Virus record (IMG/VR): IMGVR_UViG_3300025928_000013
Coordinates: 1 to 47,569 of that record
Length of the DNA stretch: 47,569 nucleotides
Source of the DNA: a virus
Strand: one strand, 5' to 3'
Within the stretch, counting starts at the first letter, position 1. Each line of letters begins with the position of its first letter. Made by a program: the position numbers and the translations under genes. Under the pieces are notes generated by a model. The model was given only the letters and a program-made list of their open reading frames with translations, made no database searches and had not been told where the DNA came from. Positions 24,177 through 43,369 of this stretch are shown here, one piece after another.

Positions 24177-24657
24177 TGAAGTCCTCCCTATTAAGTCCGT
24201 ATAACCAGATGTCTGTGGGCTTGCCGCTTACCAGCGTTTGCCCAACTAGTGTTCCTTCTCGTTTCGCCCCCAAATTGATCAGGAGCGAACCGATCGCGAG
24301 GTTGCCGGCCAGCGGATAAAACGACAGTTTTCCGACGCCGGTCGCGAACATCTCTGCGATCGCAATCTTGCAGGCCCGCACCGCGATACCGCGCGCCTGG
24401 TGCTCCGGTTTCAACAGCAGGTGCGCCGTGCCGAGCCAGGGCGTGATTTTCTCGAACGCGATCCACCCGCCGAGCTCTTCATCGGCGTAGATGGCCCAGG
24501 TCTTCAGCCGCTCCCAACCTTCGGCCGCCTTGAACATGAACTCTTCGAGCGTCTGTGGCGCGAAATCGTCGGCCACCTTTGCGCGGAACGTCGCACCCCA
24601 TAACCAAATGCGTGGCAAGGCCTCGAACGGGAACGGGGAGCGGACGTCGATCTTCAC
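24025..24657 (-). CDS. GNAT-family acetyltransferase
   Basis: The 210-residue product carries GNAT motifs: LLKPEHQARGIAVRACKIAI at residues 81-100 supplies the acetyl-CoA-binding loop, and GNLAIGSLLINLGAKREG at 118-135 matches the family's terminal motif. The fold ends near residue 158; the last 50 residues overlap the next gene by 152 bases in another frame and may be dispensable. It is unusual to find an acetyltransferase in a morphogenesis operon. It could modify a virion protein or a host target. GTG at 24657 chosen. Confidence 0.78.
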   Translation of the reverse strand: MKIDVRSPFPFEALPRIWLWGATFRAKVADDFAPQTLEEFMFKAAEGWERLKTWAIYADEELGGWIAFEKITPWLGTAHLLLKPEHQARGIAVRACKIAIAEMFATGVGKLSFYPLAGNLAIGSLLINLGAKREGTLVGQTLVSGKPTDIWLYGLNREDFSAICNSSSDRGSVEHRRQPAIGQTKDHDVDVDPHLLARDAGVDVAVGKLQ

Positions 24658-25696: not shown

Positions 25697-26197
25697 CTAG
25701 GCATCCACCTGCACGTCCACCCACTCCGGATTAGGCGGCGTAGGTTTGATTGCCATGGGCCGCGGATTCCAGTCTGTGGTTGGTGGGATTGCCATCTTGA
25801 CCGGATTCCAGTCAGTGATCGGCGTGATGTCCATCTTGACCGGCGCCCACTCGCCCATCGGCGGGATTTCCATCTTGACCGGCGCCCACTCAGTCGTCGG
25901 AGGCAATGGCACTGCGTACCACTGCCACTGCGTACCCGGCAGTGTGCGCGCCCAGATCCGCGCGTTATAGATCCGCATAATCGAGCCAAAATACGGGACG
26001 ATCTTCAGGTTGTAGAGGTGCCCCCGCGTCGTTGGCCGCATTCGGAAGCGAACCACCCGCCAGCTGGCCGCAACTATGCCGAACTCCTCGCGCACCGCCA
26101 TCGCGTTGCCCGGCAGATCAGTCTGAAACGTGAGTTGTCCTCCGAGGGTCGACTCGTACTCGACGTCCAGCGCGCCAAAAATTGTGACCGCCTCCAT
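25697..26197 (-). CDS. Virion protein with four 13-residue Trp/Pro repeats
   Basis: The first about 95 residues are a beta-rich domain (VTIFGALDVEYESTLGGQLT, MRPTTRGHLYNLKIVPYFG). Then come four tandem repeats: PPTTEWAPVKMEI, PPMGEWAPVKMDI, TPITDWNPVKMAI and PPTTDWNPRPMAI, followed by a Pro-rich end. The repeats read like an extended rod or binding stalk. The ATG overlaps the previous stop (TAATG). It is in the adaptor/tail region, so a virion location is likely. No family known to me. Confidence 0.75.
   Translation of the reverse strand: MEAVTIFGALDVEYESTLGGQLTFQTDLPGNAMAVREEFGIVAASWRVVRFRMRPTTRGHLYNLKIVPYFGSIMRIYNARIWARTLPGTQWQWYAVPLPPTTEWAPVKMEIPPMGEWAPVKMDITPITDWNPVKMAIPPTTDWNPRPMAIKPTPPNPEWVDVQVDA
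25748..25903 (-). repeat. Four 39-bp tandem repeats inside the Trp/Pro repeat gene
   Basis: The plus strand carries CCATCTTGACCGG-type units at 39-base intervals (about 25792, 25831, 25870). They correspond to codons for the 13-residue repeat units, with the leftmost unit more diverged. Confidence 0.8.
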
Positions 26198-26565
26198 TAA
26201 ACGCCTACTGAGTGCGGCAGTGACTCAAAGAATTCGCCGAGTGCGCCATCCAGATAAACGCCGATTTCGCGCATCCAAATCACGCCCGAGCGCAACTGAG
26301 TGCCGCCAGATGCTGACGTCGCGAACGGGTCGACGCGCTCCTGATAGAGCGTGCCTTCAAGTGGGGCGCCGTTGGCATCTACCAACGGAAACGTGATCGT
26401 ATTCGGGGTGTGGTCCGCGTTAGTGATCGGCATCGTCTTGCCGCCCGTGCGTTCTACCAGGTGGCCGCCGGGCATGTCGGTGAAAAACTTAAAGGTCGAC
26501 GGGCCACTCGGCGAGACGTACTCGAGAGAGGCTTCTTTGAACTGCGCAACTTTGCGAAATGCCAT
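26197..26565 (-). CDS. Small virion-associated protein with gp10-like C-terminal motif
   Basis: The 122-residue product (MAFRKVAQFKEASLEYVSPS ... DPFATSASGGTQLRSG) ends IGVYLDGALGEFFESLPHSV GV, the same 22-residue module that ends the next upstream gene, at 14 of 22 positions. A GGAGT ribosome-binding site overlaps the upstream stop, fixing the ATG at 26565. The remainder is beta-rich. A virion assembly or docking role for the shared tail is inferred. Confidence 0.72.
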   Translation of the reverse strand: MAFRKVAQFKEASLEYVSPSGPSTFKFFTDMPGGHLVERTGGKTMPITNADHTPNTITFPLVDANGAPLEGTLYQERVDPFATSASGGTQLRSGVIWMREIGVYLDGALGEFFESLPHSVGV

Positions 26566-26569
26566 ATTT

Positions 26570-28765
26570 TTAAACTCCGATTGATGTCGGTTCCGGCTGC
26601 CAGAAGTCGCCGACGGCGCCATCGAGATACACACCGATCGGCAGCACTCGCACGCGCAAACCGTAAAGCTGAAAGTCGGTGGTGCTGTAGGCCGTGTAGC
26701 GCAGCAGCTTGCCGATGATGGGGCGAGTCAGGACGATGCGCTCTGATTGCCGGGTGGTGGTGCTCAGGATCGCCTCGAGTGCCGCGGCCGCCATCGCTCC
26801 GCCGCCACTGTCCGCATAAGGCTGGAAATTTCCGTTGCCACCTCTCGCGTCGACGTCGAGTTCCACCTGGTCAATCTGCTTGTGCCCCTGGATGCCGTGA
26901 TCGGTTTCGTCGGTATCAAAGGTCTTGGCGTGGCGCGCCTCGTAGTAGAAGTGCACGATCAACGGCGAGTCGATCTGGCATCCCGTCGCCATGTTTCCGG
27001 TAATGCGGATTGACATGTTGTAGGCGCGGATGGGCTGACCTCGCAGCGCCACCACTGAGTAGCCGCTGGGATAAACCAGCGGGATGAGTTCTTTCGTTTT
27101 TACGGAGGAGGTGATGGTGCCCAACACGAACTCATCGGTTGCCGGCGCGCGGTTTTTGTTCGTCCGGATGGTGATGGTCAACGGCACGCCCCCGGTGAAG
27201 TGATCAATCACCAGGTCCGCGAAAGTTTTCTCGCGATCGGCCGAGCCCCCGTCGAGGTATGCGCTCTGGAACGCAGTCGCCGGGCTGCCGGCAGCGCCTG
27301 GCAACTGATAAATTCCGCTCTGCGAACCGAGCAGACCAGCACTCCCCTGCGCGTAGGCATTAAAGCCGCCCTGCATGGAGAACCAGCGATCGGACGGCAT
27401 GTGCCAGATCACCGTTCGGGTGAACGTGACTTCCTTGTAACTCACCCACAGCCGGCCGTTTTCGTAGCCGAGGGCGCATACCGATGGCGTGGCTTCGGCG
27501 AGAAAATTCTCGGGCACGGCGCCGCCATGGAAAAGCGAATTGACCTTGGTCGAGATCGGGCGCGCCCAGTCGGTCAGAATGAAGACACCCTCATCTGAGC
27601 GGAAGAATTCGCCCACTGACGACGAATAGAACGCGCGCGGACCCACAATCCCCATTTCCGGAACCAACGGCTCGAGCCGTGCGTTCGCGTCGTCAAAATC
27701 GCCCACCTGCCGCCAGATCGATTTATCCCGGTAGATGATGAGCAGGCCTGGCTTCACACTCACGCCGAGGATTCCGTCCTTCGCGTCGGTGCCTACATCG
27801 ACCCAGTCGCCGTCGTTTGGATTGGCGGCGCCGCGGAAAAAGCCCGGCTGCAGCGCTTGCGTATAGAAGAGGCGGTTCGGGTTCGCGTCGGTGTTTCCCA
27901 CAACGATGCGGCCGTTGAAGGTCTGGTTCGCCATGATCTTCGCCGCCGGCGGCGCGTCGTGATCGCCCTGCATGATGATGCCGAGCTGCAGCATCTGGGT
28001 GTCGCTGTGGGTGTGCACTTCATCGCCGTAGTCGTCGACGTAAGTGCGCGCCAGGCCGAGCGGTCCATCCTCATTCAGCAGGTACGGCGTGCCGACAATC
28101 TCGCGGTAGATGTTCCAGCCGGTGGCAGTCGCCGGCGCGCCGGCCGGCTGAAAAATTCGTACGATCGCGCCGAGGGTGGCTGGCGCCGGCGTGATTGTTG
28201 CCACCGCCGACGGGTTGGTTTCGCCGAGCGTGGTCTGCCAGGTCACGTAGTACTGGTAGGGAGTATTGAGCAGCGCGCCCTGTAGCGGCGGGTTATTGGC
28301 CGCGACTACAAAGCCGGAACCAAATGGATAGTGCAGGCCTGCGCCAGTGTCTCCACCGTCTTCGAGGTTCGGCGCTGCCGGCGGCGCGATCGTCCAGTCA
28401 CTCGTCGTTGCTCCATCGTCTTTGCGCTGATGCGCCCGGTTGATGATCCAGGTGAATCCCTGGTAAGAGATCATGCCGACTGGAAACGCGTCATAGTCAG
28501 CGTTCAGCAGCGTCACCCCGCGGTAGACGGACCCGGTCGTACTGTTGCCCAGGTAATAGGTGGTGCCCATCTGGCAAAGACTGTCGCCAAACACCGGCGC
28601 GGTGCCCGCGACAAAAGCTGCGACGGTCGACGCCTCAACCCGGCCGGCTGCTCCTGGCCACCATCCCTGCAGGTCGAGACAATCCCCTTCACTGACCTGG
28701 TCGCCCGGGGCAACAAGGTTTAGCCCGTTCGGCAGGATGCGGGCGGTCTCAAGTTTGTAAGCCAT
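26570..28765 (-). CDS. P22 gp10-like tail/DNA-stabilisation protein
   Basis: The 731-residue protein carries the hallmarks of the podovirus gp10 family: NRLFYTQALQPGFFRGAA then NDGDWVDVGTDAKDGILGVS and KPGLLIIYRDKSIWRQVGDF, a beta-propeller-type pattern. It is predicted to cap the portal/adaptor and hold packaged DNA. It is longer than P22 gp10 (about 470), with an additional N-terminal domain (residues about 150-260) and an IGVYLDGAVGDFWQPEPTSI GV end shared with the next gene. The start overlaps the previous stop (TGATG). Confidence 0.78.
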   Translation of the reverse strand: MAYKLETARILPNGLNLVAPGDQVSEGDCLDLQGWWPGAAGRVEASTVAAFVAGTAPVFGDSLCQMGTTYYLGNSTTGSVYRGVTLLNADYDAFPVGMISYQGFTWIINRAHQRKDDGATTSDWTIAPPAAPNLEDGGDTGAGLHYPFGSGFVVAANNPPLQGALLNTPYQYYVTWQTTLGETNPSAVATITPAPATLGAIVRIFQPAGAPATATGWNIYREIVGTPYLLNEDGPLGLARTYVDDYGDEVHTHSDTQMLQLGIIMQGDHDAPPAAKIMANQTFNGRIVVGNTDANPNRLFYTQALQPGFFRGAANPNDGDWVDVGTDAKDGILGVSVKPGLLIIYRDKSIWRQVGDFDDANARLEPLVPEMGIVGPRAFYSSSVGEFFRSDEGVFILTDWARPISTKVNSLFHGGAVPENFLAEATPSVCALGYENGRLWVSYKEVTFTRTVIWHMPSDRWFSMQGGFNAYAQGSAGLLGSQSGIYQLPGAAGSPATAFQSAYLDGGSADREKTFADLVIDHFTGGVPLTITIRTNKNRAPATDEFVLGTITSSVKTKELIPLVYPSGYSVVALRGQPIRAYNMSIRITGNMATGCQIDSPLIVHFYYEARHAKTFDTDETDHGIQGHKQIDQVELDVDARGGNGNFQPYADSGGGAMAAAALEAILSTTTRQSERIVLTRPIIGKLLRYTAYSTTDFQLYGLRVRVLPIGVYLDGAVGDFWQPEPTSIGV

Positions 28766-30101: not shown

Positions 30102-30229
30102 GACGCACCTCCAAAAACGCCAATATTTATGGAGTTTTCGAGTGTTGTCGCCGTATAATTGAGAAGCGAGCCGAGCCGATGCGTGAACATCGACGCGGCT
30201 CTAACCACCGATCTGAAAGGACAGACCGT

Positions 30230-31096
30230 ATGGCTAAGAAGCAGCTTACCCCAGAACAGAAGAAGGAAAGCCAACAGCAACGATGGCGGCTCGCCACGGC
30301 GCGATATAGAGCCAAGCATCCTAAGGCGAAAACCCCGAGAAAGCGCCTTACTCCAGAGGAAAGAGCTAAACGTAAACACGAAGCCCAGCGACGCGCGGCC
30401 GCTCGCTACTACGCCAAGAACCGAGAGAGGGAAGCAGCTCGCTCCAGAGTTTATCGCGCTGCGAACCTTGAAAAAACGAGACTGAGCGCTGATCGCTACC
30501 GCGAACAGAATCTGAACAAAGAACTGGCGAGATGCGCGCGATATCGAGCGGACAATCGAGAAAAAATATCGGACGCGCAACGAAAGCGCCACGTAGAACA
30601 TCCCGAACTGCGGCACAGATATTACCGTAAGTGGTACGAGGCAAAGCGCGCCGCGATTCTCGAAGCGAAGCGCGCCCGATACCTTGAGAATCAGGAGAAG
30701 GAGAAACAGCGTCGCGAACGCTACAGAGCAGAACATCCGGACAAGACACGTGAAAGCAACAGAAAGTGGGCTGTCTCGCATCCTGAAAAAGTCGCACAGC
30801 GCGGACGCAACCGTAGGGCGCGAGAACTTGGAGCGGAAGGGCATCATACCCCTGCCGACGTCACGCGAATCTTCGACCAGCAGATCGGGAAGTGTGCTGG
30901 ATGCGGAGCTGCTATTACGAAGACCGGCAAGGGTAAATACCATATCGACCACGTCATGCCCCTCTGCCGCGGAGGTTCGAATAACCCGGACAATCTGCAA
31001 CTGCTGTGTCCACCCTGCAACCACCGAAAAAACGATAAGCACCCAGACGAGTGGCGTAAGATGATCGCCGCCAAGGCCACATCTCATGGTGGATAG
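30230..31096 (+). CDS. HNH homing endonuclease-like protein, antisense insertion
   Basis: The 288-residue product has a long Lys/Arg/Tyr-rich N-terminal region with repeating ARYRA-N-EK blocks (about residues 15-200) and a C-terminal HNH domain: CAGCGAAITKTGKGKYHIDH, VMPLCRGGSNNPDNLQLLCP and PCNHRKNDKHPDEW. AAAGGA lies upstream of the ATG at 30230. It runs opposite to the structural operon, in DNA less GC-rich than its neighbours, which are signs of a mobile gene. TATAAT at 30154-30159 may be its -10 box. It probably cuts near a conserved phage site to spread itself. Confidence 0.88.
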   Translation: MAKKQLTPEQKKESQQQRWRLATARYRAKHPKAKTPRKRLTPEERAKRKHEAQRRAAARYYAKNREREAARSRVYRAANLEKTRLSADRYREQNLNKELARCARYRADNREKISDAQRKRHVEHPELRHRYYRKWYEAKRAAILEAKRARYLENQEKEKQRRERYRAEHPDKTRESNRKWAVSHPEKVAQRGRNRRARELGAEGHHTPADVTRIFDQQIGKCAGCGAAITKTGKGKYHIDHVMPLCRGGSNNPDNLQLLCPPCNHRKNDKHPDEWRKMIAAKATSHGG

Positions 31097-31101: not shown

Positions 31102-33168
31102 TCATCGGATCCAGATCTTCGTGCCGTCGAAGGTGTAGGTGTAGAGCACGTTCGTCGACGTGGTAATGGTGGTGCCGATGGTCGCGCCCGCAGTGAAAGT
31201 GACCGCGCCCGTAGTGGTGCGGAATGTGCCGGTGCACCCGGTGCACAGGCCCAGGACGGAAGTCACGCCCGTGGTCCCGGTGATCGTGATGTTCCGGTTG
31301 ATGGGAAAAGTCAGCGCGGCCGCGGACGCGATCGCCGGGATTACATTGTCGACGCCGAGGTTGTTCAAAATGATTCTGTTGGGGCCGCCGAGCGCAGTGA
31401 TTCCGGCGGCGTGCCCACTGGTCGTGTCTACGCCCGTGATCTGGTAATTGTCGGACCCTGCACCGCTGACAACGATGGGCAGGAGCTGCTGGTCGACGCG
31501 GCTGTCACCCTGGCCGTACGCTCCGCCATTCACCTGAAAATTGGAGATGCCGGCGGCAAACTCAGCCCCATACGCCGCGCTGACACCGGCGATAGAGTTG
31601 CCGTGCGCCTTGCTCGCAGTGAGACTGACGTGTTTGACGTTGGCGCCGGAAAATGAATAACCGTTGAGCCAGTTATCGTAAGCTCTGTGACCCACAAACG
31701 AGAGGCCATCGATCACACCTGAATCGAATGTGCGGGCAGTGACACCGTTGCCGGCGGCCGTCGAGGAGCTCCACGAGTTGGTGAAGTGAATACTCTCCGC
31801 GATCGCTGTGTTGTGTGCCTCGATCAGGATCCCGCCGTCAACGCTCGTGTCGAATTGCGAATTCTCCACGAAGACAAAAGCAACGCTGGTTCCGCCCACG
31901 GCATCGACGTAGAAGCCGATCTGACACGTCAGCACGTCCACCTGGGTCACGTAGAACCCGCTCGCCTCGGTCAACTTGATTCCGTGTGGCCGCGGGAGAC
32001 TCCCGCTGCATCCGAAAATGAGGTTAGTTAAGTAGACGTCATCAGCGCTTTGATTATCGAAAAGGGCCGTGGTTCCGCTTTCGAAGCTGTCCAGGTTGGA
32101 ATCGGAAACGAAGACGCCAAAATTGGTCGGTAGGGTCTGAATCCCTGTCTGGGCAATGATCGACATGTGGTGGATCTTCATGCCGTTCTGCAACTCGACA
32201 ATGATCCCGACCAAACCCTGCCCGGTGGTGTTCGGTTGGATTTGCATGTACGAGATCTCGTTGCCGAAGCCGTTGAGAAAATGGAAACTCGGCAGGCTGG
32301 CGTGATGGTTGTTTATCTTGGTGGAACTGGAGCCTTGCCCGGTGATAATCGTGCCGATTCCGCGAATCACCACAGCCGAGTAAAACTGCAAGGTGCCCGA
32401 CGGCAGCTCCACCACTCCTCCCACACCCGCGGTGGCGATCGCCTGCACCGCTTCCGCTACTCCCGCGGTGGCGCTCTGGACCGTCCACGCGCCCGAGTGC
32501 GCGTTGGCGCAGTTCAGGATGATCACGCCCGACGTTTGGCCCGCAACGCCGGCGCCGCCGGCAATCAGGCAGTCCTCGGGGGTTCCAGTGCCGTTTTTGA
32601 TATACAGGCGGTGGTACAAGTCGGATCCATTAACCCCCAGTGGGACCGGCGTGAACGTCACCGAATTGTTTCCGATGGCGAGCGATCCGCCCGGTGTCTG
32701 CGGAGCAAAAGTGTAATCGCCGGGATAGTACTTTGTTTTTGCGGATCCAATGATCGCGGCGACGTTCGAGAGGTTCGGCCCAAGGGCAGCTTCGACCGCT
32801 TTGATCTCCTCTTTGAGCGCATTGTGGTGATAGGCTACGATGCGACCCTGCACCGCAGCGTTCTGCAGGTGGCTGGCAGCGGTGGTGCCGGCGAATCCAC
32901 GCAGGCTCAGCGTGAGGTGCTGCGCGTCGGCCACCGCGCTCACCAGCATCTGCTCGTTGTCCAAGGTGATGATCATCGGCGCCGTAAACTTTGCCGTTGA
33001 GGCAACCGGCAGCGACAACGTAGCTGCGTCGACGCCGAGCAGCAGACTGGTGTCTGCGCGATCGGACATCTTGAAGAGATCGTTGTCGGTGGCCACCGCC
33101 GCCGGATAGCGCGCGGTCTGCGCGCACAGCGTCAAGGTCAGAACAAGAAAGAGAAAAAGACGTTTCAT
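31102..33168 (-). CDS. Beta-helical tailspike-like protein with signal peptide
   Basis: The 688-residue product starts with a signal-peptide-like segment (MKRLFLFLVLTLTLCAQ, then TARYP). A head domain (GVDAATLSLPVASTAKFTA) and many short beta-strand repeats of right-handed beta-helix type follow, from about residue 240 onward (VVELPSGTLQFYSAVVIRGI, IHHMSIIAQTGIQTLPTNFG, ISNFQVNGGAYGQ). The C-terminus is a small beta domain (TYTFDGTKIWIR). Beta-helical tailspikes bind and often digest surface polysaccharide. The signal peptide is unusual for a phage spike. The HNH gene lies convergently, six bases after its stop. Confidence 0.78.
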   Translation of the reverse strand: MKRLFLFLVLTLTLCAQTARYPAAVATDNDLFKMSDRADTSLLLGVDAATLSLPVASTAKFTAPMIITLDNEQMLVSAVADAQHLTLSLRGFAGTTAASHLQNAAVQGRIVAYHHNALKEEIKAVEAALGPNLSNVAAIIGSAKTKYYPGDYTFAPQTPGGSLAIGNNSVTFTPVPLGVNGSDLYHRLYIKNGTGTPEDCLIAGGAGVAGQTSGVIILNCANAHSGAWTVQSATAGVAEAVQAIATAGVGGVVELPSGTLQFYSAVVIRGIGTIITGQGSSSTKINNHHASLPSFHFLNGFGNEISYMQIQPNTTGQGLVGIIVELQNGMKIHHMSIIAQTGIQTLPTNFGVFVSDSNLDSFESGTTALFDNQSADDVYLTNLIFGCSGSLPRPHGIKLTEASGFYVTQVDVLTCQIGFYVDAVGGTSVAFVFVENSQFDTSVDGGILIEAHNTAIAESIHFTNSWSSSTAAGNGVTARTFDSGVIDGLSFVGHRAYDNWLNGYSFSGANVKHVSLTASKAHGNSIAGVSAAYGAEFAAGISNFQVNGGAYGQGDSRVDQQLLPIVVSGAGSDNYQITGVDTTSGHAAGITALGGPNRIILNNLGVDNVIPAIASAAALTFPINRNITITGTTGVTSVLGLCTGCTGTFRTTTGAVTFTAGATIGTTITTSTNVLYTYTFDGTKIWIR

Positions 33169-34017
33169 TTAACGGCACCACCGTTTTGCGCGATGCGCAG
33201 TGAAGTATGAACTGAGTTGCATGTGCGTTGGGCCGGATCCCTGCGCCTCCGCCCTGCGCATAAGTTTCAGCGCCTCCGCTGCGTTCACCTTGGCGAATTG
33301 CGCGCCTGGAATATCCTTCAAGTGCGCCTTGATTTTCGAGATGCAGCCTTCCACGAGCGCTGCTGGCTGCAGCCAGATCTCGACCACATCAGTCGCGTCG
33401 GAGAGGCCGCCAATCTCACCGGCATAGGTGTACGGCAAGCCCGCGGTCACGTCGGGAATTGGCCAGATTTCCACCTGCATGAGGGGCGGTGTCTGCGAGT
33501 CCTCCATGTACGAGGCCCAGGCCTGTGGCGTGCCCGACGCCTGCCGGCGTGGATCAACCTCGTTCAACTTGGCGAGGGAAAAGCGCTTCAGGGGATCGAA
33601 GGCGGTGTCTTGTAGCAGGCGGGCATCGGCGGGTAGGTGATAGACGCTCTGAAAGATCGAGTAGCCGGCGCCGGTGGCGTTCGGCCCTTCGTACGGTCGT
33701 TCGATCGTGCCCACGGTGTCGGTGACACGCGTGAATTGGTAGAACTCGGGACGCGCGGCCGCGCGGAAGGACCGGCCGCTAAATTCAGCCGGCCAGGTCC
33801 CTCCGGTCAGGGTGACGGTATCGGATCCCAGCGTCACGGCAACCGTCCCAGTGACGTAGGGCGCCTGCAGGGGGAGGGTGGTGGTGAAGTTACGGCTTGT
33901 CCACGGCAGCTCGCCCAGGATCTCGGAATAGCGATCGCCGATGAATCCCTCGACCAGGTCCAAGCTCAACCCCGGGAACATCTGGGTGAGGCGGAGTTTG
34001 AGTGCGCCGTATGTCAC
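33169..34017 (-). CDS. Putative tail adaptor protein (P22 gp4-type position)
   Basis: GTG at 34017 gives 282 residues (MTYGALKLRLTQMFPGLSLD LVEGFIGDRYSEIL ...). The N-terminal helices, beta-rich central domain (YVTGTVAVTLGSDTVTLTGG) and helical end (INAAEALKLMRRAEAQG type) resemble podovirus head-tail adaptors. The GTG lies two bases after a GAGG. Upstream codons back to 34299 overlap the preceding gene and read as shadow. It sits between the big fibre genes and the tailspike. Confidence 0.62.
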   Translation of the reverse strand: MTYGALKLRLTQMFPGLSLDLVEGFIGDRYSEILGELPWTSRNFTTTLPLQAPYVTGTVAVTLGSDTVTLTGGTWPAEFSGRSFRAAARPEFYQFTRVTDTVGTIERPYEGPNATGAGYSIFQSVYHLPADARLLQDTAFDPLKRFSLAKLNEVDPRRQASGTPQAWASYMEDSQTPPLMQVEIWPIPDVTAGLPYTYAGEIGGLSDATDVVEIWLQPAALVEGCISKIKAHLKDIPGAQFAKVNAAEALKLMRRAEAQGSGPTHMQLSSYFTAHRAKRWCR

Positions 34018-34049
34018 GCCCTCTATATCGCCGTCTGCGGTGTGGAGTC

Positions 34050-37000
34050 CTAGCGGGTGCTGACTGCCGGCGTCAAGCGCACGCCAGGAGCGAGCGATAT
34101 GCCCGTTGCGGGGCTTCCCACTACAACGGCGCCCTGGGTGACGCTGAAGACTACCCCGGTGCTCGTGAAGAGGGTGGCTGATCTGCTGGCGCCTGCGTTG
34201 GCGGCCGCGGTCCACCCAATTCCTGACACGCTGCCGGTCCCAGAACAATTCGCGGTACAGGTCAGCCAGCCGGCCGAGGAGCTGAGGCCTCGATTGCAAC
34301 TCGAATCCGTCACCGAGGCGTTGAACGTGCCGATGCCGCCGGCGGCTATGGGAGTGGCAGAGCTGGGAAAAAACGAGAGATCGACACAGGGACCGGGAGG
34401 TCCCGAGATTGCCGCCTCAATATTCGCAATGTTCGCGCCCACGTTCGTCGCGTCGGAGGCCGGCCCTACGCCGGCGTCAGTCGGATCCGACGGGTCAGGA
34501 AACGCGAGATAATCGACCGCCAGCACGCGACAGGTGTCTCCGCCGCCGGCGCAGGCTTTGTAATGGCTGGACGATCCCAACGCCCACTGCGTGATCACGT
34601 CGCACGAGCCGCTCACCGGCATCATGTTGCCCGTTGCCGCTGTATACGTGCCGCTCCCTACGCTCGCCTGCAGCGTGACGCTGGTCGATGTGGACGCCTT
34701 AACGCGCCACGTATTATTCGCTCCCAGGTTGCCACGCACCCCGCTGACAATCACGTAGTCACCCACCGCCGGCGTGCATGAGAGTGCCCCGGTGCTGATC
34801 ACGATCGGCGAAGCATTCGTGGCGCCGGTTATTGGAATCAGCCCGGCGAAGCCGATCCCCGTGATGCCCCGCGGCCAGTACTGCTCCTGATAGTCCGCGA
34901 GCGTGCCGGCCGTGTAGCCTTCGTAGTATTGACGCTGGAATCCAAAATCCTCACCGCCGCCATCCGCGGCATTGCCCATCATCACGTTGCGATGCCAGAT
35001 CCACGAATTCGGGAAAGGCGGATCCGGCAGCGCACACAGGCCGCCGGCGCCGTTCGAACAAGACCCCGAGGTCTGCCAGATCTGAGCGCCGATCTTGCCG
35101 ATGGGTGAGCCTCCGTTATATGCCGCAGGCCCATTGAGACCGTGGCTTCCAAACCCAAAAATGTTGTCGTTAAAAACCCACCTGCCGATCGCTGGGGGCG
35201 TATAGCCGCCGCTCGCCTGCGTGACCTCGGACGCAGACATGATGGTGTTGTGCAAGAGTTTGAACTGCGGCGTCACGGCACCGGTATTGATGACCAAAGA
35301 GCCGCATGACACGCCTGGTTCGCAGTAGATGCCCGTTAGGTTGGTCGCCAGGTTGTTCGAGAGCTTCACCCTTTGCATCGGAATCGAACTGCCATTGTCC
35401 TGTGCGCCGAGCTGCGCCATGAACTGCACCGACGAACGACACCAGTTGTCGTGCATGTAGATGTCGCTGATGGTACCCAGGCTGGCCACGTTGTTAATGT
35501 CCTGCCAGGAACCCATAATTCTGTTCGTCAAGGTGAAGCACTGGCCTTCCTGACCGCCACCAACGGCAGCAGACCCTTCCACCACGTTTCCGGAGATGTC
35601 CCAGCGCTTCGCAGTCTTCATTTCCTGCGGATTTTTATACTGGATCGAATAGCCGTGCCGGGCTGTGATAGTCCCGGCGATTGTGCCCGAACTTGAATCG
35701 AGAGGGATGGTGAACACCGAGTTGGATCCGCCCACGGGAACTTCGAACATTGGCCCCAGCACATGAGCATCCGGCCAGGTGCACCTCTGGTTGATGCCCG
35801 AGGCGAACTGCATATGCGTGGCGTCCGTAACCGTGATCACCGACGGCCCGTTCAGGTTCACGCAGGTGCTGCCGGCCAGCCCGCTCACATAAACGGTATC
35901 GCCGCTGGTGAAGCCGTGCGCTGATCCCGTAGTGATTATGCAATTCGCGCCGTTGCAGTTCAGGTCAGCCAGCGATCCATCGGTCAGAAGAAATTCTTTC
36001 GCGTTGATCTTGCTCGCGAGACTGCCTGTTGCACCGATGAAGCTAAACCAGCGCGGGTTCGACAGGCCGACGGCGAGATCGGTTTCCTCTACGAGCGTAA
36101 TCGTCGTTGGGTTTCCGGTCGTCACCGAGGCCACCGCGTTCTGCCTCTGCAACGGGTAGGTGGGGCTGTTATTGCGGCGCGACTGATCCATGTAGAGGTA
36201 GTTCCGCTGGATGATGCCGTCCGCCGTATTCCAGCCACTGTCTCCCGCGAAGATGGACATGTGCGCGGCGCCGAGGCGATTGTTTTTGATGATGAAGCCA
36301 CCATCTGAAAGATCGGGGCTCGCAATATTGATAGCGCCCAGATCCTGACCGTAACTCCCCAAGCCCTCCGTCACTGAATCGACTACCGCAAAACTGTTCC
36401 CGCCGTACCAGTTGACGCCCGACGACATTCCAGAGGAGATGTTCTTCTGGAAGAAGTAAACGCGATCGATCACGAAATTCTGCGGGTGGTAAGCGTGCCC
36501 GTACTGACCGCCGCCCTGTGCATGCGAAAGCTCGACCAGGCCGTAACCGGTGCCGGCGGCAGCATAGAGCGGGTCTGGCTGGATCTTCAAGCCGGGCCCG
36601 AGGTGCACATTATTCGCCGAGGTGTAGGGCGCCAGCGCAAACACCGGCCCGAGCGGATGCGCGGTTTGGAGTGTCACCAGGCTGGATGCATACGTCGGAT
36701 TATCGATGCATGGGCTTGTCGCGGCCGTAGCTGCCGACGAATTGAGCGGTGGGAGGCAGGCACCCGGTGCCGGCAGAGCACTGTCCAGCGCATCGGTGCG
36801 GATTGTCATGCCGGGAGACGTGCACAGCAGCCAGCCGCCGGACGGCGCCGTGCATGTGTTTGCTGCCGGGATCTTGATCTCGGTAGTACCTCCGCTCGCG
36901 CACGCATTCGTGATCAGCGTTTGCAGCGTGCTGCAGGTCGCGTCTGTGGCCACGTGGGCAGTGTATGATCCCGGGAGCGCTGTCGAGAATGAGACGCCGG

Positions 37001-37931
37001 AAGGTGGAACAGGATCGTCAGGATCGGCCAGGCTGCTCAAGAATGTCACGGTCTGGTCTGCGCTTTGTCCCGTATGTGCCCCGATGCTGGAACAGTTCGA
37101 GGCGCCGAACTGGCGCGGCGTCGAGAGCACGATGTAATGGATCGTGGTCCCTGGCGCCTGGCCCGTGATGTATTCCCAGTGTTTGGTCTGCTGCGCAGCA
37201 TAGTTGTAGTCCACAAACACCGAGTGCGGGTAGGTGCCTGCAGAGCCGCCTGCGTCTCCGTAACACACCACGTGATCGGTGCCCAGCATGGAGATGGTTT
37301 CGCCGGCCACGTGGACCGTGCCTGAGGTGCCGTAGTTCGACTCCATCCAGACGTCGGGGTCCGAGGTGAAGTCGCAGGGCGAACAGATCGCACTGCTGGA
37401 AAAAGTGAAATGCGTGCTATCCGGTCGACTGGCGATCGCATAGCCATCACCGGTGAGGTTGGCCGTGCGGGCATAGTGAATGATGAACTTGTGACCAACG
37501 TCCCACCAGGGTTGCAGTGGGTAGGGAACCGTCGCCGTGCAGGTTCCTGCCGAGCAGACGTAAGACACGCCGGTGCGGGTCTGGTAGTGGCTCTCGCTGG
37601 TGGCGTCCGCTCCACAGACCACGTTTCCGGTCGTCCCGCTGACCGGCGCAGCCAGGCAATACTCGAGCCCATTCACGAGCACCGTGATCGGATCAGTGCT
37701 CCCAGGCGTGACCCAGTGGCTCGTTGTCCCGACGTTGATGGTCTGAGAGGCGCCCGTCGTCGTGAAACCCGGGGCACTGAGCGTCGTATCGGAAGCCGTG
37801 TCGTGATAGAAGCCGGCCGTCCAGTGGATCCGCGCCGTCGTCGACGTGACGGCATCGGAACCTACGCCCGTGATCGGCGGCGCCTGGGCAAAGACAAAGC
37901 CCGAGGCGAACAAGATGGCTAAGAGCCTCAC
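34050..37931 (-). CDS. Giant secreted fibre/adhesin with BACON-like C-terminus
   Basis: GTG at 37931 overlaps the previous stop (GTGA), giving 1293 residues. It begins with a signal peptide (MRLLAILFASGFVFAQ, then APP), followed by a fibronectin-like stretch (SDAVTSTTARIHWTAGFYHD). Long beta-helix-like repeats occupy about 350-1000 and contain a GSAHGFTSGDTVYVSGLAG module. A BACON-like domain lies near the end (GLSSSAGWLTCTANCSGTGS, TAAANAGASRSATLF, VFSVTQG). Cysteine pairs such as CSAGTC, NCNGANC, CSNGAGGLC and CTANC recur, as expected of disulphide-bonded exported protein. A receptor-binding or extracellular matrix role is inferred. Confidence 0.78.
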   Translation of the reverse strand: MRLLAILFASGFVFAQAPPITGVGSDAVTSTTARIHWTAGFYHDTASDTTLSAPGFTTTGASQTINVGTTSHWVTPGSTDPITVLVNGLEYCLAAPVSGTTGNVVCGADATSESHYQTRTGVSYVCSAGTCTATVPYPLQPWWDVGHKFIIHYARTANLTGDGYAIASRPDSTHFTFSSSAICSPCDFTSDPDVWMESNYGTSGTVHVAGETISMLGTDHVVCYGDAGGSAGTYPHSVFVDYNYAAQQTKHWEYITGQAPGTTIHYIVLSTPRQFGASNCSSIGAHTGQSADQTVTFLSSLADPDDPVPPSGVSFSTALPGSYTAHVATDATCSTLQTLITNACASGGTTEIKIPAANTCTAPSGGWLLCTSPGMTIRTDALDSALPAPGACLPPLNSSAATAATSPCIDNPTYASSLVTLQTAHPLGPVFALAPYTSANNVHLGPGLKIQPDPLYAAAGTGYGLVELSHAQGGGQYGHAYHPQNFVIDRVYFFQKNISSGMSSGVNWYGGNSFAVVDSVTEGLGSYGQDLGAINIASPDLSDGGFIIKNNRLGAAHMSIFAGDSGWNTADGIIQRNYLYMDQSRRNNSPTYPLQRQNAVASVTTGNPTTITLVEETDLAVGLSNPRWFSFIGATGSLASKINAKEFLLTDGSLADLNCNGANCIITTGSAHGFTSGDTVYVSGLAGSTCVNLNGPSVITVTDATHMQFASGINQRCTWPDAHVLGPMFEVPVGGSNSVFTIPLDSSSGTIAGTITARHGYSIQYKNPQEMKTAKRWDISGNVVEGSAAVGGGQEGQCFTLTNRIMGSWQDINNVASLGTISDIYMHDNWCRSSVQFMAQLGAQDNGSSIPMQRVKLSNNLATNLTGIYCEPGVSCGSLVINTGAVTPQFKLLHNTIMSASEVTQASGGYTPPAIGRWVFNDNIFGFGSHGLNGPAAYNGGSPIGKIGAQIWQTSGSCSNGAGGLCALPDPPFPNSWIWHRNVMMGNAADGGGEDFGFQRQYYEGYTAGTLADYQEQYWPRGITGIGFAGLIPITGATNASPIVISTGALSCTPAVGDYVIVSGVRGNLGANNTWRVKASTSTSVTLQASVGSGTYTAATGNMMPVSGSCDVITQWALGSSSHYKACAGGGDTCRVLAVDYLAFPDPSDPTDAGVGPASDATNVGANIANIEAAISGPPGPCVDLSFFPSSATPIAAGGIGTFNASVTDSSCNRGLSSSAGWLTCTANCSGTGSVSGIGWTAAANAGASRSATLFTSTGVVFSVTQGAVVVGSPATGISLAPGVRLTPAVSTR

Positions 37932-39115
37932 TGAATCTCCAGGGACACCGTGTAAATGTGAGCGGAAGGAGAAGCCGATGCGTTTACTGCGCGTGCGGAT
38001 AGCGCGCCCCCGGAGGCAAAGGTGTCGGTGACCGAACTGCAATACTCGGCTGCCGCCGCGCCTGCCGCGACGGTCTTGGTTACGGCGGATGCGGTAGACG
38101 GTCCCGTCATCAACGTAATCACGAGGGCGCCGTCTCCCGGCTGCGCATCTGCCGTGGTGATACAGAGAAGATTCGCCGTTCCGTTGTGATGAACGGTGAG
38201 CGCCACATTGGCTCCATTTAAGTTCTGCGAGAACATCTGCCCGAAAACCGGCAGGTAGGCAGTTGCAGAGCCCGCGACCTGTGGGCCTGCCACGGAGTTC
38301 CAGTTCGAAGCCAGGACAGACACTCCGCCGCCGCCTCCTCCACCGCAAGCTCCGCCGCTATCGACCAGGTTGCCTAGGGAATCGAACTTGGCGCAGTCGT
38401 TGGTGGGCGTGCTGCCGGTGGTGGTGGCGACTGTAGCGGTTCGCGCGGGCATCGTCAACACACCCGAGGCGGTCGCCGAGGCCTGCAGCTTGGTGCTGCC
38501 TGAAGTGGATCCGGGGAATATCACGGCATCGCCCGAGAGGCCCGTCACGATCACATTGCCCAACGCCTGCAGGTTGGTTCCATCCCACACGAACGTTTGC
38601 GTGGAGCAGGCGTTTGCAGTTGGATCCACCGCGCCATGGTTCTGTACGTTCGTGGGCCACACAAATGAGTGGCTGCCTCCGCTGTCCTGGCAGATCCGGA
38701 TTGTCGATATGGGGAAGCCTGAGTGGGTGATGCCGCTGGTGTCGAGCGTAGAGCTGCTCACATTGCCCGTCAGGGTCAACTGCATCGTCTTGCCGGTGTT
38801 CGCGTCGATCGCAAATGTCGGCGTGGACGAGAAGCTGACCGTGGCGAAGCCGGCCGGATCCGCATTGCCGCCGCCGCCGGTGCCCGGGGGTCCGGTTGGT
38901 CCTGCAGGCCCCATTGGTCCCGCCGAACCTACTAACGGGTACGTGGGGTTCCAGCAGTTCTGTGCGGCGAGCCATACGGTCGTCTGTCCGTCGAGCAGCG
39001 TAGTGCTGGGGCACATCGGTAATTGGACTGCGGCCGGCGTCTTCGGCGGATGGAACACCTGCTGGGCGAAAAGCAGCGGGAGGCAAAAGAGAATCAGCAG
39101 AATTCGGTTCATCAT
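37928..39115 (-). CDS. Collagen-like fibre protein with signal peptide
   Basis: The 395-residue product has a signal peptide (MMNRILLILFCLPLLFAQ, then QVF), a Cys-containing head, a short collagen-like Gly-X-Y run (GPMGPAGPTGPPGTGGGG) near residues 66-83, and beta-rich domains. Phage-fibre-like elements (VLTMPARTATVATTTG, TNDCAKFDSLGNLVDSGGAC) follow. Gly-X-Y segments trimerise fibres. It is coupled to the next gene by GTGA. Confidence 0.75.
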   Translation of the reverse strand: MMNRILLILFCLPLLFAQQVFHPPKTPAAVQLPMCPSTTLLDGQTTVWLAAQNCWNPTYPLVGSAGPMGPAGPTGPPGTGGGGNADPAGFATVSFSSTPTFAIDANTGKTMQLTLTGNVSSSTLDTSGITHSGFPISTIRICQDSGGSHSFVWPTNVQNHGAVDPTANACSTQTFVWDGTNLQALGNVIVTGLSGDAVIFPGSTSGSTKLQASATASGVLTMPARTATVATTTGSTPTNDCAKFDSLGNLVDSGGACGGGGGGGVSVLASNWNSVAGPQVAGSATAYLPVFGQMFSQNLNGANVALTVHHNGTANLLCITTADAQPGDGALVITLMTGPSTASAVTKTVAAGAAAAEYCSSVTDTFASGGALSARAVNASASPSAHIYTVSLEIQ

Positions 39116-39129
39116 AAAGACCTTTTCAT

Positions 39130-40041
39130 CTAGAAGTTCGGCCCAACAATTGACCCATGGCGGTAGTCGATGTCCTCGCTCCAGCGCTGCATTGAAGTCC
39201 AGGTGCAGGTCAGGAAATCGTTGTTGTTGCAGTCGGAGTAATGTATGATGTGAGCTCCCGCCGGATTGTTATCTAAAGACTCAAGGGCAATTCTCCAACT
39301 CCCTGCGCCCGTGGGCCGGTAAAGCGTTGGACCTTCCCAGTTACACCCCCAGCCTGCCCAGTCTCCGACTCGCTGCATGGTATACGGCCCGAGCAGCGTC
39401 GAGGCGCTGGCCAGCTCAATACACCTGTCGTCCTCGTGCGTCATCCAGAGGTAATAGGTGCTGCCAACCTTCCAGGGCTTGGGATCGTAGATATCCGTCC
39501 GATCACTGGCCCCGCCGATGTTCTTGACCTCTACAAAAACCGGGTCGCTCCAGAATGTCATCGGGCAACTTACCGATGCTGTGACGCAGGTTGCCCCGCC
39601 GGCCGTCTCCAGGGCGTGTGTTTCGTACATCTGGAACCCTACCGGATTGCTTGGAGAATTCGGGCCTGCGGGAATAATCAGGTGAACCGATCCGTCACTT
39701 TCCACAAACCATTCGCCGGAATTGGTGGCCGAGATTCCTGAGATCTTACCCGTCCAATTGATAGTTGCTATCGTGCTGACAACCCCGGAGGAATTGTGCG
39801 TTCCAATGATCCAAGGAATCCTATCCGCCGCTCCCCAGGTTTCGGATACGTGCAGGTAGTCCACCCCTTTGTACTGCAGAATCATCGGGGCATTCAGGAC
39901 ACCGGCGTGATCCGGCCAGGAGCCTCCAGCGTTTGTCCAGTGCAGGCCATCGTCGCTGACTGCTGTGGTGAAGTTGTTCACGCCGCCGATGTAGTCCTTA
40001 AAGCCAAAGTAGGTGAACCGGGTGCTGGGGGAACCGGTCAT
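39130..40041 (-). CDS. GH43-like five-bladed beta-propeller, putative glycosidase
   Basis: The 303-residue product reads through several blades: TTAVSDDGLHWTNAGGSWPD, HAGVLNAPMILQYKGVDYLH, IYDPKPWKVGSTYYLWMTHE and WAGWGCNWEGPTLYRPTGAG. Repeats of SDDG/DP-W/EGP-L type are those of family 43-type arabinanases and xylosidases, whose acids are two Asp and one Glu; Glu in WEGPTLY is a good candidate acid. It probably degrades a surface polysaccharide. The start is the first ATG 15 bases after the upstream stop; unlike its neighbours it lacks a signal peptide. Membership in the exact family is not proven. Confidence 0.62.
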   Translation of the reverse strand: MTGSPSTRFTYFGFKDYIGGVNNFTTAVSDDGLHWTNAGGSWPDHAGVLNAPMILQYKGVDYLHVSETWGAADRIPWIIGTHNSSGVVSTIATINWTGKISGISATNSGEWFVESDGSVHLIIPAGPNSPSNPVGFQMYETHALETAGGATCVTASVSCPMTFWSDPVFVEVKNIGGASDRTDIYDPKPWKVGSTYYLWMTHEDDRCIELASASTLLGPYTMQRVGDWAGWGCNWEGPTLYRPTGAGSWRIALESLDNNPAGAHIIHYSDCNNNDFLTCTWTSMQRWSEDIDYRHGSIVGPNF

Positions 40042-40056
40042 CCAACCCCCAACCAG

Positions 40057-41307
40057 CTAAGGAACACCCGTCGCGTAGGAGTCGAACACCACCGCCTGGG
40101 ATACACTCGAATTACTCGGGTTTGTCTGTACGACAAGTTGCGTTGCCGTCGCGAAAGTGTTCCTGGTCTCCGTGACAATGTTGACCCAGTTATACCCGTC
40201 GTAGCTGTAGTCCACCAGCCAATTCGTGCTGTTGTCGGTCAACCGCAGCCATACTGGCCCCCCAGAGCTTATGTACGGGCCTTTCTGGAGAATTGTCGCC
40301 AGGGTCAGGTTGCCGTTGACGCTAGTGGTGGAGTTCCAGTTTGCCCCGCCGAGTGTGACGCCGCCCGGAACCCATACCGGGCCGGCCGTAACGAGCTTAC
40401 CGGGAGTACCGACAGTCCCATCGGCCCACCCCACCTGCACAGCGGGAAAATTCGTCGGCGTCGTATTGTTCCCGCCAAGCAGGGGCCAAATTCGGAACGT
40501 GGCGGTGTAAGGTGCAGACGGTATAGCTGTTGCCACACCTTGAACGTGATCTCCGCCGCTGGCGTTGATACCCGCCCAGGTGAAACGACCGCTTCCGAAT
40601 GTGGGAGCCTGCACCATGGACCCCGTATTAAAGGCTGTCCAGTTGCCGCTGATCGGAGCGGTGAGTATAGGATAAGTTGCACTGCATCCAGGAGCAGAGT
40701 CCGACAGATCCGCGCATGCCAGCCGCGCCACCGTGACAGCACCGCCAACGGAAGTCTGCTTGAGCACTTGCGATGTCCCACCTGTTGCCGACAGGTCCGC
40801 ATTCGTGCCGCCATAAGCAAGACCGATCTTCGTTGACTGCCAGGTGCCGGTTGCAATCGTGCCGAGGTTTGCCAGAGAGGAGAGCGTCGTCACCCCAGTA
40901 TTTACGAGCGTCCCCGTGGGAACGATCGTGGTTTGGTTATCAGCGCTTGGTTGAATCGTCCAGGCTGTAGTGGGCGGCGTGAACGTTATTTTGTTCAGCG
41001 TGCCCGGCAGGGTCAGAATGCTTGGCAGGGTCAGGGTCCAGCTTCCGCTGCCGGTGATCGGTGTAGCGCCCGTGACCGTGATCTGGTTGGCGGTACCTGC
41101 GAGTCCGACACTGGTGACCGAGCCGGATCCGCCGGCCGACGACGGTGTCCAGCATCCCCGCGAGGAATTATAGGCGAAGACTTGCGTATTGGTAGGCGTG
41201 TCCGCGCATACCAGAACACCCTGAATCCTCTTGGCATTATTGCCGAACTGCGCCTGCGATACGGCCACGAAGACGGCCAGGAGAAGCCCGAGCTTAATCG
41301 AACGCAT
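40057..41307 (-). CDS. Fibre-like protein with signal peptide
   Basis: The 416-residue product begins MRSIKLGLLLAVFVAVSQAQ, a signal peptide, followed by a fibre-type repeat region (SVTSVGLAGTANQITVTGA, TPITGSGSWTLTLPSILTLP) and GTNADLSATGGTSQVLKQ. A C-terminal beta-sandwich (about 270-416: VQVGWADGTVG, WLVDYSYDGYNWVNIVTETR) resembles a laminin-G or carbohydrate-binding module. It overlaps the start of the upstream gene by 14 bases. It is likely a fibre or adhesin. Confidence 0.74.
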   Translation of the reverse strand: MRSIKLGLLLAVFVAVSQAQFGNNAKRIQGVLVCADTPTNTQVFAYNSSRGCWTPSSAGGSGSVTSVGLAGTANQITVTGATPITGSGSWTLTLPSILTLPGTLNKITFTPPTTAWTIQPSADNQTTIVPTGTLVNTGVTTLSSLANLGTIATGTWQSTKIGLAYGGTNADLSATGGTSQVLKQTSVGGAVTVARLACADLSDSAPGCSATYPILTAPISGNWTAFNTGSMVQAPTFGSGRFTWAGINASGGDHVQGVATAIPSAPYTATFRIWPLLGGNNTTPTNFPAVQVGWADGTVGTPGKLVTAGPVWVPGGVTLGGANWNSTTSVNGNLTLATILQKGPYISSGGPVWLRLTDNSTNWLVDYSYDGYNWVNIVTETRNTFATATQLVVQTNPSNSSVSQAVVFDSYATGVP

Positions 41308-41656
41308 AGTACTTCCTGCTGACCAATTTGAACGTCCGATCCGCCCCCTGATTCACCGCCAGCGCCGTCACCCCGCTGCGAATTTTCAGGTACGTTACCG
41401 AGACGAAATCACTCGGATCGAGCTGCAACCATTGCGCGGCAGCCGGACTGGTGACCTTGACCTCGAGTCCGTTCGAGGCCTGGAGCAGGTCGTACCAGGT
41501 CACGTTGTCATCGGAAACCTGAAACGTGATGTCGGCAGCAGTCCAGGCCGCCGGCATCACCAGAGCAGTGGGAACTTTGTCGCCCACGAAAACGCCTGCT
41601 GAGAGAGACGTGCCGCTCGTAATGGTGGCGGTGAGACTCGATGTATTTCTTCCCAT
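41294..41656 (-). CDS. Small beta-rich structural protein
   Basis: The 120-residue product (MGRNTSSLTATITSGTSLSA ... ITFQVSDDNVTWYDLLQASN ... YLKIRSGVTALAVNQ) is a single beta-sandwich with an Ig- or discoidin-like look (VSDDNVTWYDL). It lies between the capsid genes and the fibre block, suggesting a minor capsid or fibre-attachment protein. Confidence 0.62.
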   Translation of the reverse strand: MGRNTSSLTATITSGTSLSAGVFVGDKVPTALVMPAAWTAADITFQVSDDNVTWYDLLQASNGLEVKVTSPAAAQWLQLDPSDFVSVTYLKIRSGVTALAVNQGADRTFKLVSRKYYAFD

Positions 41657-41666: not shown

Positions 41667-42302
41667 TTACAGCGTGTGAACCCGGTAGTACGTGTTCACC
41701 TTCAAGGTGCCGTCGCCGGCCGTCATGTTCGCGATCAGCAGCGCGAGCACCAGGGGCTGGTTGATCGCGTTGGTATCGAGTGCGAGCTGCGCGGTCAGAG
41801 GCTGGAACATCGAGCTGACCGTGGCGCCGTCGCAGAATCCGGTCACGGCTCGAGTAGTCGAGACATCGGCGCCGGTCTTGTCCTTGTACTTCACGCTTAA
41901 GTTGGTCGCCGAGCCGATCGTGTAATCGGTGGTGACGTGGGTGTAAGTGATCGTGGCGCGGATAAATTCGAGCACCTTGCCGGCGCCGGGCGCGGGAACG
42001 AGCGAGATAGCCGTGGTGAACAACGCGAGAACCTGCGTCGAGGTCAGCGTCGTGGTGGTCATCTGGGCCGCGGGTCCGGATCCGTCCGCGGCGATGTACC
42101 ACAACAGATTTTTCGCGGAGTCGTACACGCTGATCAGGTCGTTGGTCTGCGAGGCCGCGCCCTGCACGATGAGCGGGGTCTTGTTCGCCGCGTTCGAATC
42201 GCCCACCGAGGTGCGATAGCGGGCCCTGAAAAGAGTGGATCCCAGTTTAGTCAGGTACGCCGGAATTCCACGCTGAGCGTCGGAAGGAAAAGTTGAAGGC
42301 AT
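41667..42302 (-). CDS. Putative minor capsid/tail protein
   Basis: The 211-residue product has an N-terminal segment (MPSTFPSDAQRGIPAYLTKL) followed by alternating beta strands (LISVYDSAKNLLWYIAADGS, VLEFIRATITYTHVTTDYTI) and ends TLKVNTYYRVHTL. It is the first gene downstream of the capsid gene, separated by a 137-base gap with hairpins. No family recognised. Confidence 0.6.
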   Translation of the reverse strand: MPSTFPSDAQRGIPAYLTKLGSTLFRARYRTSVGDSNAANKTPLIVQGAASQTNDLISVYDSAKNLLWYIAADGSGPAAQMTTTTLTSTQVLALFTTAISLVPAPGAGKVLEFIRATITYTHVTTDYTIGSATNLSVKYKDKTGADVSTTRAVTGFCDGATVSSMFQPLTAQLALDTNAINQPLVLALLIANMTAGDGTLKVNTYYRVHTL

Positions 42303-42439: not shown

Positions 42440-43369
42440 TTAAGCGCCAGGCGTGCCGTAGACGCCGCGCCATCCGTACGCACCAACCGTGGCACGATAG
42501 CGCATATAGACGACGCCGGTTTCGTTTTTCTCGACATAGTCCGACTTGGTGTACGGAGCTTTTCTGTCGAGCCACAACGTCTCGGTTTCGTCCGGAGGGG
42601 CGACGAGGAACCAGGCATCCGGGTCGGTCAAAAAACCTGCCCAGATGAGAGGCTCGACGGTTCCGCCAGTCTCCGTATACTTGAACGCGTTGATGGTGTG
42701 GTTAGCGGTGTCGGAACGCATCTGAGACTTCAGAAGCTCCGCCACATTCCAGCGGTTCTGAGAGGCCACCAGCACGCGCGGAGTGGGCAGCATCTGGAAA
42801 AAGCCCTCATGGGTCTTGATTAGTTCCCAGTCTGTCAACCCGAGCTCGAGCGAGGTGACATCGAGGTCCGCGGCCACTGAGAGGAGATTGCTCTGAGTGC
42901 CGCCGGCCTTGATCAGCGGGTGATCGGAAGCGCACAACGCCTTGGTGTCGGGCAACGCATAGGCACCCGTCGAGAAGGCGTTATTGAAGACAGACGCAGC
43001 CTGAATCTCGCGCGCCTGATAGATCGAATTAGAGAGCGCCTGCGCACGTTTCGAGATGATCCCAAACTTGTCATCTTCGACGAGCTCTTGCGAAGCAGGG
43101 ATTCCGAGCCCGTATTTAACGGGTCGAAATGTTTTGTTGAACCCCTGAACGAAGTAATCCGTCGGCGTGTCTTCGCCCTCTTCGACCGAGCTGGGGAGTC
43201 CCACACCGGCCATCTGGCTGTACTGCTCGATGGAGCGGTTGGTGGTATCCGAGGAGAGAACCATCTTCGCCATGAACTTTTTGGAGCGAAAATTTTGCCA
43301 AATCTTCGCGTTCACAGCGGGCAACATGGTCTCGAAAAAGAAGTCTTGAAATTGTCCACGAAATTGCAT
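42440..43369 (-). CDS. Major capsid protein, Mu gpT-like/HK97 fold
   Basis: The 309-residue product shows the gpT-type pattern: QDFFFETMLPAVNAKIWQNF at the start, then SIEQYSQMAGVGLPSSVEEG, EDTPTDYFVQGFNKTFRPVK and YGLGIPASQELVEDDKFGI. FNNAFSTGAYALPDTKALCA followed by SDHPLIKAGG is typical of this family, and LPTPRVLVASQNRW and YRATVGAYGWRGVYG close it. It forms the icosahedral shell. It follows a likely decoration protein and a scaffold-like protein in gene order. Confidence 0.87.
   Translation of the reverse strand: MQFRGQFQDFFFETMLPAVNAKIWQNFRSKKFMAKMVLSSDTTNRSIEQYSQMAGVGLPSSVEEGEDTPTDYFVQGFNKTFRPVKYGLGIPASQELVEDDKFGIISKRAQALSNSIYQAREIQAASVFNNAFSTGAYALPDTKALCASDHPLIKAGGTQSNLLSVAADLDVTSLELGLTDWELIKTHEGFFQMLPTPRVLVASQNRWNVAELLKSQMRSDTANHTINAFKYTETGGTVEPLIWAGFLTDPDAWFLVAPPDETETLWLDRKAPYTKSDYVEKNETGVVYMRYRATVGAYGWRGVYGTPGA

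Follow-up and report, generated by a model that had tools for sequence, protein, structure and literature searches.

Introduction

The conventional view is that synthesis and assembly of tailed-phage virion proteins both take place in the cytoplasm. Classical fibres and tailspikes, such as the T4 long tail fibre and the P22 tailspike, are synthesized in the cytoplasm and have no signal peptide. In the open-licence full-text literature, in which matches were judged mostly by title and abstract, we did not come across any description of tailed-phage fibres with signal peptides. The closest precedent is the Q-rule signal-peptide proteins of Porphyromonas gingivalis phages (proposed Nixviridae), for which Matrishin et al. 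(2023) described five Q-rule genes of unknown function (PMC10367356; again in PMC10653852). The Q-rule itself was described for Bacteroidetes (PMC5837995), and a text search of PMC5837995 and PMC10653852 found no mention of Acidobacteria. Here, we analyze a set of fibre-like genes with signal peptides (SPs) in a soil phage, and conclude that the phenomenon is real, conserved and unusual for tailed phages. Standard annotation would label these genes tail fibres and overlook the export signal.

Results

Phage genome and host

The window, i.e., the whole stretch of DNA that was analyzed, comprises 47,569 bases and is an entire IMG/VR virus record; the description that fits it best is that of a temperate, podovirus-like soil phage of Acidobacteriota. 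IMG/VR contains 21 relatives of the major capsid gene (42440-43369, minus strand; Pfam Phage_capsid_4, 3.5e-12), of which 17 share 71-79% identity with it, and a relative at 79% identity is present in a Terriglobia (Acidobacteriota) MAG contig. This 97-kb contig carries bacterial genes up to ~72 kb, including those for a nitrite/sulphite reductase-like protein, a secretin, a phosphoglucomutase and an S1-domain protein, followed by the phage structural module up to the contig end; because the right border is not visible on the contig, integration of the module is what we infer rather than observe. The host assignment is based on this one contig together with the style of the signal peptides, and the phage is called temperate because of its integrase gene (10582-11493, plus strand; Pfam Phage_integrase, 9e-13). 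The window also encodes a sigma-70-like protein with regions 2 and 4 (2377-2955), which may serve the phage as a sigma factor in late transcription.

Signal peptides in the window

The initial annotation singled out four minus-strand ORFs for fibre- or spike-like proteins (31102-33168, 34050-37931, 37928-39115, and 40057-41307), all of which are present, and proposed that each begins with a signal peptide ending in AQ. Each of the four N-termini has a Lys/Arg n-region, an uncharged hydrophobic core (h-region) and an A-x-A-type site, as in Sec-exported substrates of signal peptidase I; with the predicted cut marked by an arrow, they read MKRLFLFLVLTLTLCA↓QTARYP, MRLLAILFASGFVFA↓QAPPIT, MMNRILLILFCLPLLFA↓QQVFHP, and MRSIKLGLLLAVFVAVSQA↓QFGNN. 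Thus, Sec signal peptides were correctly proposed, but the cut likely falls before the Gln rather than after AQ. Using a detector that consists of a rule set built for this analysis, we obtained seven hits among 706 open starts on the coding strand, corresponding to six genes, two of the hits (39115 and 39112) being alternative starts of the same gene, and one positive among 452 starts on the opposite strand. Composition-shuffled proteins matched the observed signal-peptide scores 0 to 5 times in 5,000. The only scan-positive genes beyond the four fibre-like ones are the two small genes (both on the minus strand) that had also been named as encoding exported proteins: 14371-14718 encodes a 115-aa exported protein with a predicted cut at AFA↓QQ and weak FN3 similarity, and 17579-17818 encodes a 79-aa protein with a signal peptide or N-terminal anchor that is not of the Q type. 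None of the four window proteins has a lipobox (Cys at +1), all four having Gln at this position, and no strong second hydrophobic segment was seen in the exported fibre-like proteins. Judged from these sequence features, the four proteins are very probably exported by Sec. As the fibre-like proteins carry secretion signals, they probably leave the cell instead of being assembled inside it.

Organization of the locus

The four SP fibre genes lie on the minus strand together with capsid and connector genes. The capsid gene is followed on the same strand by genes for conserved proteins of 211 aa (41667-42302) and 120 aa (41294-41656), both with relatives, of which the latter lies directly upstream of the A1-type SP fibre. 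This first SP fibre gene (40057-41307; 416 aa) has its first 14 nt in common with the end of 41294-41656, and its 19-aa signal peptide (41251-41307; cut at SQA↓Q) is followed by the A1 module (QFGNNAKRIQGVLVC..GCW) and then the fibre body; the protein matches phrog_19068 (4e-6). The gene at 39130-40041 (minus strand) encodes an SP-less protein of 303 aa with six Cys that is propeller-like by eye only, has no PDB or Pfam relative, and gave a structure prediction with a pLDDT of ~30. It is in frame with 40057-41307, five codons past the TAG stop of the latter (CCT TAG CTG). TAG readthrough or a nonsense mutation could place it behind the signal peptide of 40057-41307; the shared frame is weak evidence because it is expected by chance in one of three cases. 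TAG reassignment that would fuse the two genes was ruled out, as TAG terminates 9 of the 31 listed genes.

The second SP fibre (37928-39115; 395 aa) has its signal peptide at 39065-39115 (cut at LFA↓Q) and contains eight Cys in the mature protein. The collagen run reported for it consists of about five G-X-Y triplets, but there is no Pfam collagen match. Two SP-bearing proteins encoded on the chromosomes of two Acidobacteriota genomes, L071:10182-14786 (1534 aa) and L072:8454-9905 (483 aa), have a domain in common with this protein, and the gene after each of them is terminase-like by eye. The third SP fibre (34050-37931; 1293 aa) has a GTG start inside the stop of 37928-39115 (GTGA), a signal peptide at 37887-37931 (cut at VFA↓Q) and a match to the phrog_584 tail domain (3.5e-7). 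As remarked earlier, this largest protein is Cys-rich, with 32 Cys in 1278 mature residues; the BACON-like domain also ascribed to it was not recovered (no Pfam BACON at E<=0.1), the motif near the C-terminus being recognizable by eye only. Between the SP fibres lies a gene with a probable GTG start (33169-34017; 282 aa) that has 28-58% identity in relatives and weak matches to tail PHROGs; from its position, it may encode a connector/adaptor-like protein. The fourth SP fibre (31102-33168; 688 aa) adjoins the stop of this gene (TAA ATG), and has a signal peptide at 33121-33168 (cut at LCA↓Q), a tail-fibre C-terminal region, a match to phrog_33320 tail fiber (1e-12) and an SP-bearing homologue in the Terriglobia contig. 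It has no Pfam match, and structure prediction from a two-sequence alignment gave a pLDDT of ~30. This protein resembles a tail-fibre family, while the other window proteins do so weakly or not at all. Because the SP fibre genes abut or overlap head and connector genes, we expect them to be expressed late, together with the virion proteins.

An SP-less fibre candidate of the classical type is encoded at 24690-25334 (minus strand) and has an N-terminal module (LPPIEGVSDDLLRMLNDRFRSV) in common with fibres of relatives. Three further observations concern the surrounding region. A GNAT acetyltransferase-like gene in the late structural region (24025-24657) has 38-58% identity in seven relatives; 26570-28765 and its neighbour 26197-26634 have the terminal motif GVYLDGA.G.F...P.S.GV in common, which suggests a duplicated C-terminal domain; and an HNH endonuclease gene on the other strand (30179-31096), likely for a homing endonuclease, separates 31102-33168 from the structural gene that comes next.

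Relatives and mature N-terminal modules

Single-protein searches in IMG/VR detected no close relatives of three SP fibres, and tblastn of two SP fibres against INPHARED detected none. Because the SP fibre bodies are hypervariable, relatives were gathered by means of the capsid gene. These relatives have a conserved framework of the capsid gene, genes for a ~200-aa and a ~120-aa protein, a variable cassette, the connector gene (33169-34017 in the window) and further structural genes. The cassettes of most of them, at least a dozen, contain SP-bearing fibre-like genes; in G004 and L021, there is no SP fibre at this locus. In total, we gathered 25 SP-bearing fibre-like proteins from 15 soil phage records. 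The signal peptides of relatives diverge in sequence and keep their character.

Two modules recur at the predicted mature N-terminus. A1 (Q-[FVI]-x-x-NAxRLRG...C...DGQ...W....CW) stands directly behind the signal peptide of seven proteins from six records, and is too divergent for a scan of the whole collection. A2 (QIQTVPNETMPAVRAKINANFSWL) directly follows the signal peptide in nine records, the search being biased toward SP-bearing matches as the query included the signal peptide. For both modules, the preceding signal peptides diverge and the bodies that follow are unrelated. In two of the A2 records (G406 and G407), no relative of the window capsid was detected, and further SP-bearing genes are encoded elsewhere, which argues that the SP-fibre phenomenon crosses phage lineages.

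We also identified an SP-less protein, L013:7006-8751, with ~37% identity over some 350 aa to the SP-bearing protein L018:14064-15137. An SP-less homologue could reveal that the true start lies downstream of the signal peptide, as the initial annotation had cautioned; however, no alternative start is present in L018 at the position corresponding to the L013 start, arguing for a real gain or loss of the signal peptide and not for a mis-called start. In L013, there is an in-frame stop just upstream.

Gln at +1 and Cys content

Gln is at +1 in 23 of the 25 gathered proteins, including all four in the window, a fraction that is approximate because the cut sites were placed by rule and inspection; the protein bodies contain ~3% Gln. 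In predicted exported proteins of Acidobacteriota, sampled from 15 stretches of the Terriglobia genome G001 (L031-L045) and 12 other Acidobacteriota stretches (L090-L101), Gln is at +1 in 15 of 46 compared with a background of ~7% (binomial p=3e-7). This host preference supports that the phage signal peptides are fitted to host export. A match to the Glu_cyclase_2 (glutaminyl-cyclase) family is present in Terriglobia G001 and, in all, in 15 of 60 Acidobacteriota genomes.

The exported proteins are richer in Cys (1.45 per 100 aa) than 103 other structural proteins from this group of phages (0.58 per 100 aa; p=6e-8, an optimistic value given that related proteins are not independent). An even number of Cys as proof of disulphides was not upheld, the number being even in 16 of 25 proteins and odd in nine. 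Moreover, an SP-less protein of 1059 aa (G006:C1:10542-13721), which has a domain in common with 31102-33168, contains 16 Cys; therefore, Cys content alone is no proof of export. Domains among the SP-bearing proteins comprise tail-fibre PHROGs, LamG/concanavalin, GDSL esterase, pectate-lyase-like and collagen domains and a weak CE2_N. A 1296-aa protein of L018 matches several tail-fibre PHROGs, and the Pfam collagen domain occurs in this relative; with respect to a right-handed beta-helix or pectate-lyase-like spike, the SP-bearing homologue L030:9294-11432 matches Pect-lyase_RHGA_epim (8e-16), and the A3 profile matches PfbA (4mr0; 9e-6).

Discussion

Predicted signal peptides and their conservation, Gln at +1, Cys enrichment, position in the operon and modular architecture can be read from the genomes. 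From them, we infer export, cleavage, pyroglutamate formation, disulphides and docking. The export proposed in the initial annotation is supported by the conserved signal peptides, the host-like Gln at +1, the Cys enrichment and the finding that neither a lipobox nor a second strongly hydrophobic segment is present. We suggest that the four genes encode late fibre- or spike-like proteins for glycan binding or glycan processing, which would be translated together with capsid and connector proteins, cross the inner membrane via Sec and be cut at A↓Q by signal peptidase I. The new N-terminal Gln may cyclise to pyroglutamate, and the proteins would fold in the periplasm with disulphides and, lacking any membrane anchor, be soluble. 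At lysis, they would meet the particles assembled in the cytoplasm, and the short mature N-terminal modules would most likely dock them on these particles as accessory fibres or spikes. For this whole chain, from Sec export to docking on virions, our confidence falls slightly short of an even chance.

Fibres or spikes of P22 and T4 attach late to finished particles in vitro, and docking at lysis is therefore mechanically plausible. Several observations favour docking: the SP fibre genes are situated among those for the capsid, the connector and later structural proteins, the fibre architecture is modular, the SP-less L013 protein is a LamG orthologue of the SP-bearing L018 protein, an SP-less fibre of 565 aa is encoded at the same locus of G004, and the domain of 31102-33168 also occurs in the SP-less G006 protein. 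Most of these observations also speak against the main alternative, namely that the exported proteins are never on the virion and act as free adhesins, esterases or lyases, made late and located in the periplasm or outside the cell, where they would bind or trim surface polysaccharide to free the progeny, or prevent superinfection by masking receptors; moreover, fibres typically combine a short conserved module at the mature N-terminus with a variable body. However, the signal peptides imply a compartment other than that of capsid assembly, relatives contain GDSL, weak CE2 and pectate-lyase-like domains, and the secreted Q-rule proteins of P. gingivalis phages, although of unknown function, provide a precedent (PMC10367356). 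Further arguing against docking, a gene for a distinct SP-less fibre, which has a conserved N-terminal module of its own, is present in at least four genomes, including the window; therefore, a receptor-binding protein may already exist and the exported proteins need not sit on the particle. Small SP-bearing proteins without fibre character are encoded as well, and the occurrence of A2 in two phages without a detectable relative of this capsid would be unexpected if the module bound a single type of capsid, unless its binding partner had moved as well. Overall, free action is a serious contender to which we give somewhat less than an even chance. If export is taken as given, docking on virions would have about an even chance and free extracellular action only slightly less, so that the two are weighed almost equally on the present sequence evidence.

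Two other explanations appear far less probable than either docking or free action. The hydrophobic N-termini could stay uncleaved, either as membrane anchors or with the segment buried in particles packed in the cytoplasm. Cleavage is predicted here, and SAR endolysins show that signal sequences of phage proteins can remain uncleaved (PMC6116005); however, A-x-A-like sites and a Gln at +1 in nearly all gathered proteins, conserved modules that start at the predicted mature N-terminus, and h-regions as short as in cleavable signals make this very unlikely. We consider it similarly improbable that the genes are cargo of lysogenic conversion, i.e., captured host genes for secreted adhesins that are expressed from the prophage. 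The integrase in the window, the relative beside bacterial genes in the Terriglobia contig and the domain common to SP-bearing proteins of Acidobacteriota chromosomes would fit such an origin, but the genes form part of the structural operon, whose other genes they abut or overlap, instead of occupying a separate moron position, and their modules are conserved across phages. Finally, mis-called start codons that would leave the signal peptides untranslated were already disfavoured and have a negligible chance: one of the four genes has no recognizable Shine-Dalgarno sequence in our own scan and one uses GTG, but divergent relatives retain signal-peptide character at the same place, L018 lacks an alternative start at the mature N-terminus, and the starts in the window abut or overlap upstream stops.

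More generally, we tentatively propose, at less than even probability, that Acidobacteriota tailed phages finish their particles outside the cytoplasm with Sec-exported, disulphide-bonded accessory fibres that mature in the periplasm and are docked at lysis via small N-terminal modules that signal peptidase exposes. If so, phages could use surface-binding domains that depend on disulphides. Alternatively, these genes would encode uncharacterised secreted glycan-active proteins that are deployed around lysis.

The SP fibres resemble classical fibres and tailspikes such as those of P22 and T4 in combining a conserved N-terminal module with a variable glycan-binding or enzymatic body, and the late addition to the particle would be similar; unlike classical fibres, whose synthesis and assembly are cytoplasmic, they have signal peptides. 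With the exported endolysins, i.e., Lys44 of fOg44 and the SAR endolysins of P1 and phage 21, they have in common that a late tailed-phage protein uses the host Sec system; however, endolysins are lysis enzymes, whereas the window proteins are fibre-like (PMC6116005). The A↓Q sites are shared with signal peptidase I substrates that follow the Q-rule in Bacteroidetes (PMC5837995, PMC10653852), in which the Gln preference averages 71% (PMC5837995) compared with about one third, by a crude count in the genomes sampled, in Acidobacteriota. As in the P. gingivalis phages (PMC10367356), tailed-phage genes encode predicted Sec signal peptides with a Gln at +1 that is fitted to the host preference. 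While those phages have a Bacteroidota host, the window phage has an Acidobacteriota host and several such genes per genome; moreover, its genes encode large multidomain fibre- or spike-like proteins, are interleaved with capsid and connector genes, and have mature N-terminal modules in common.
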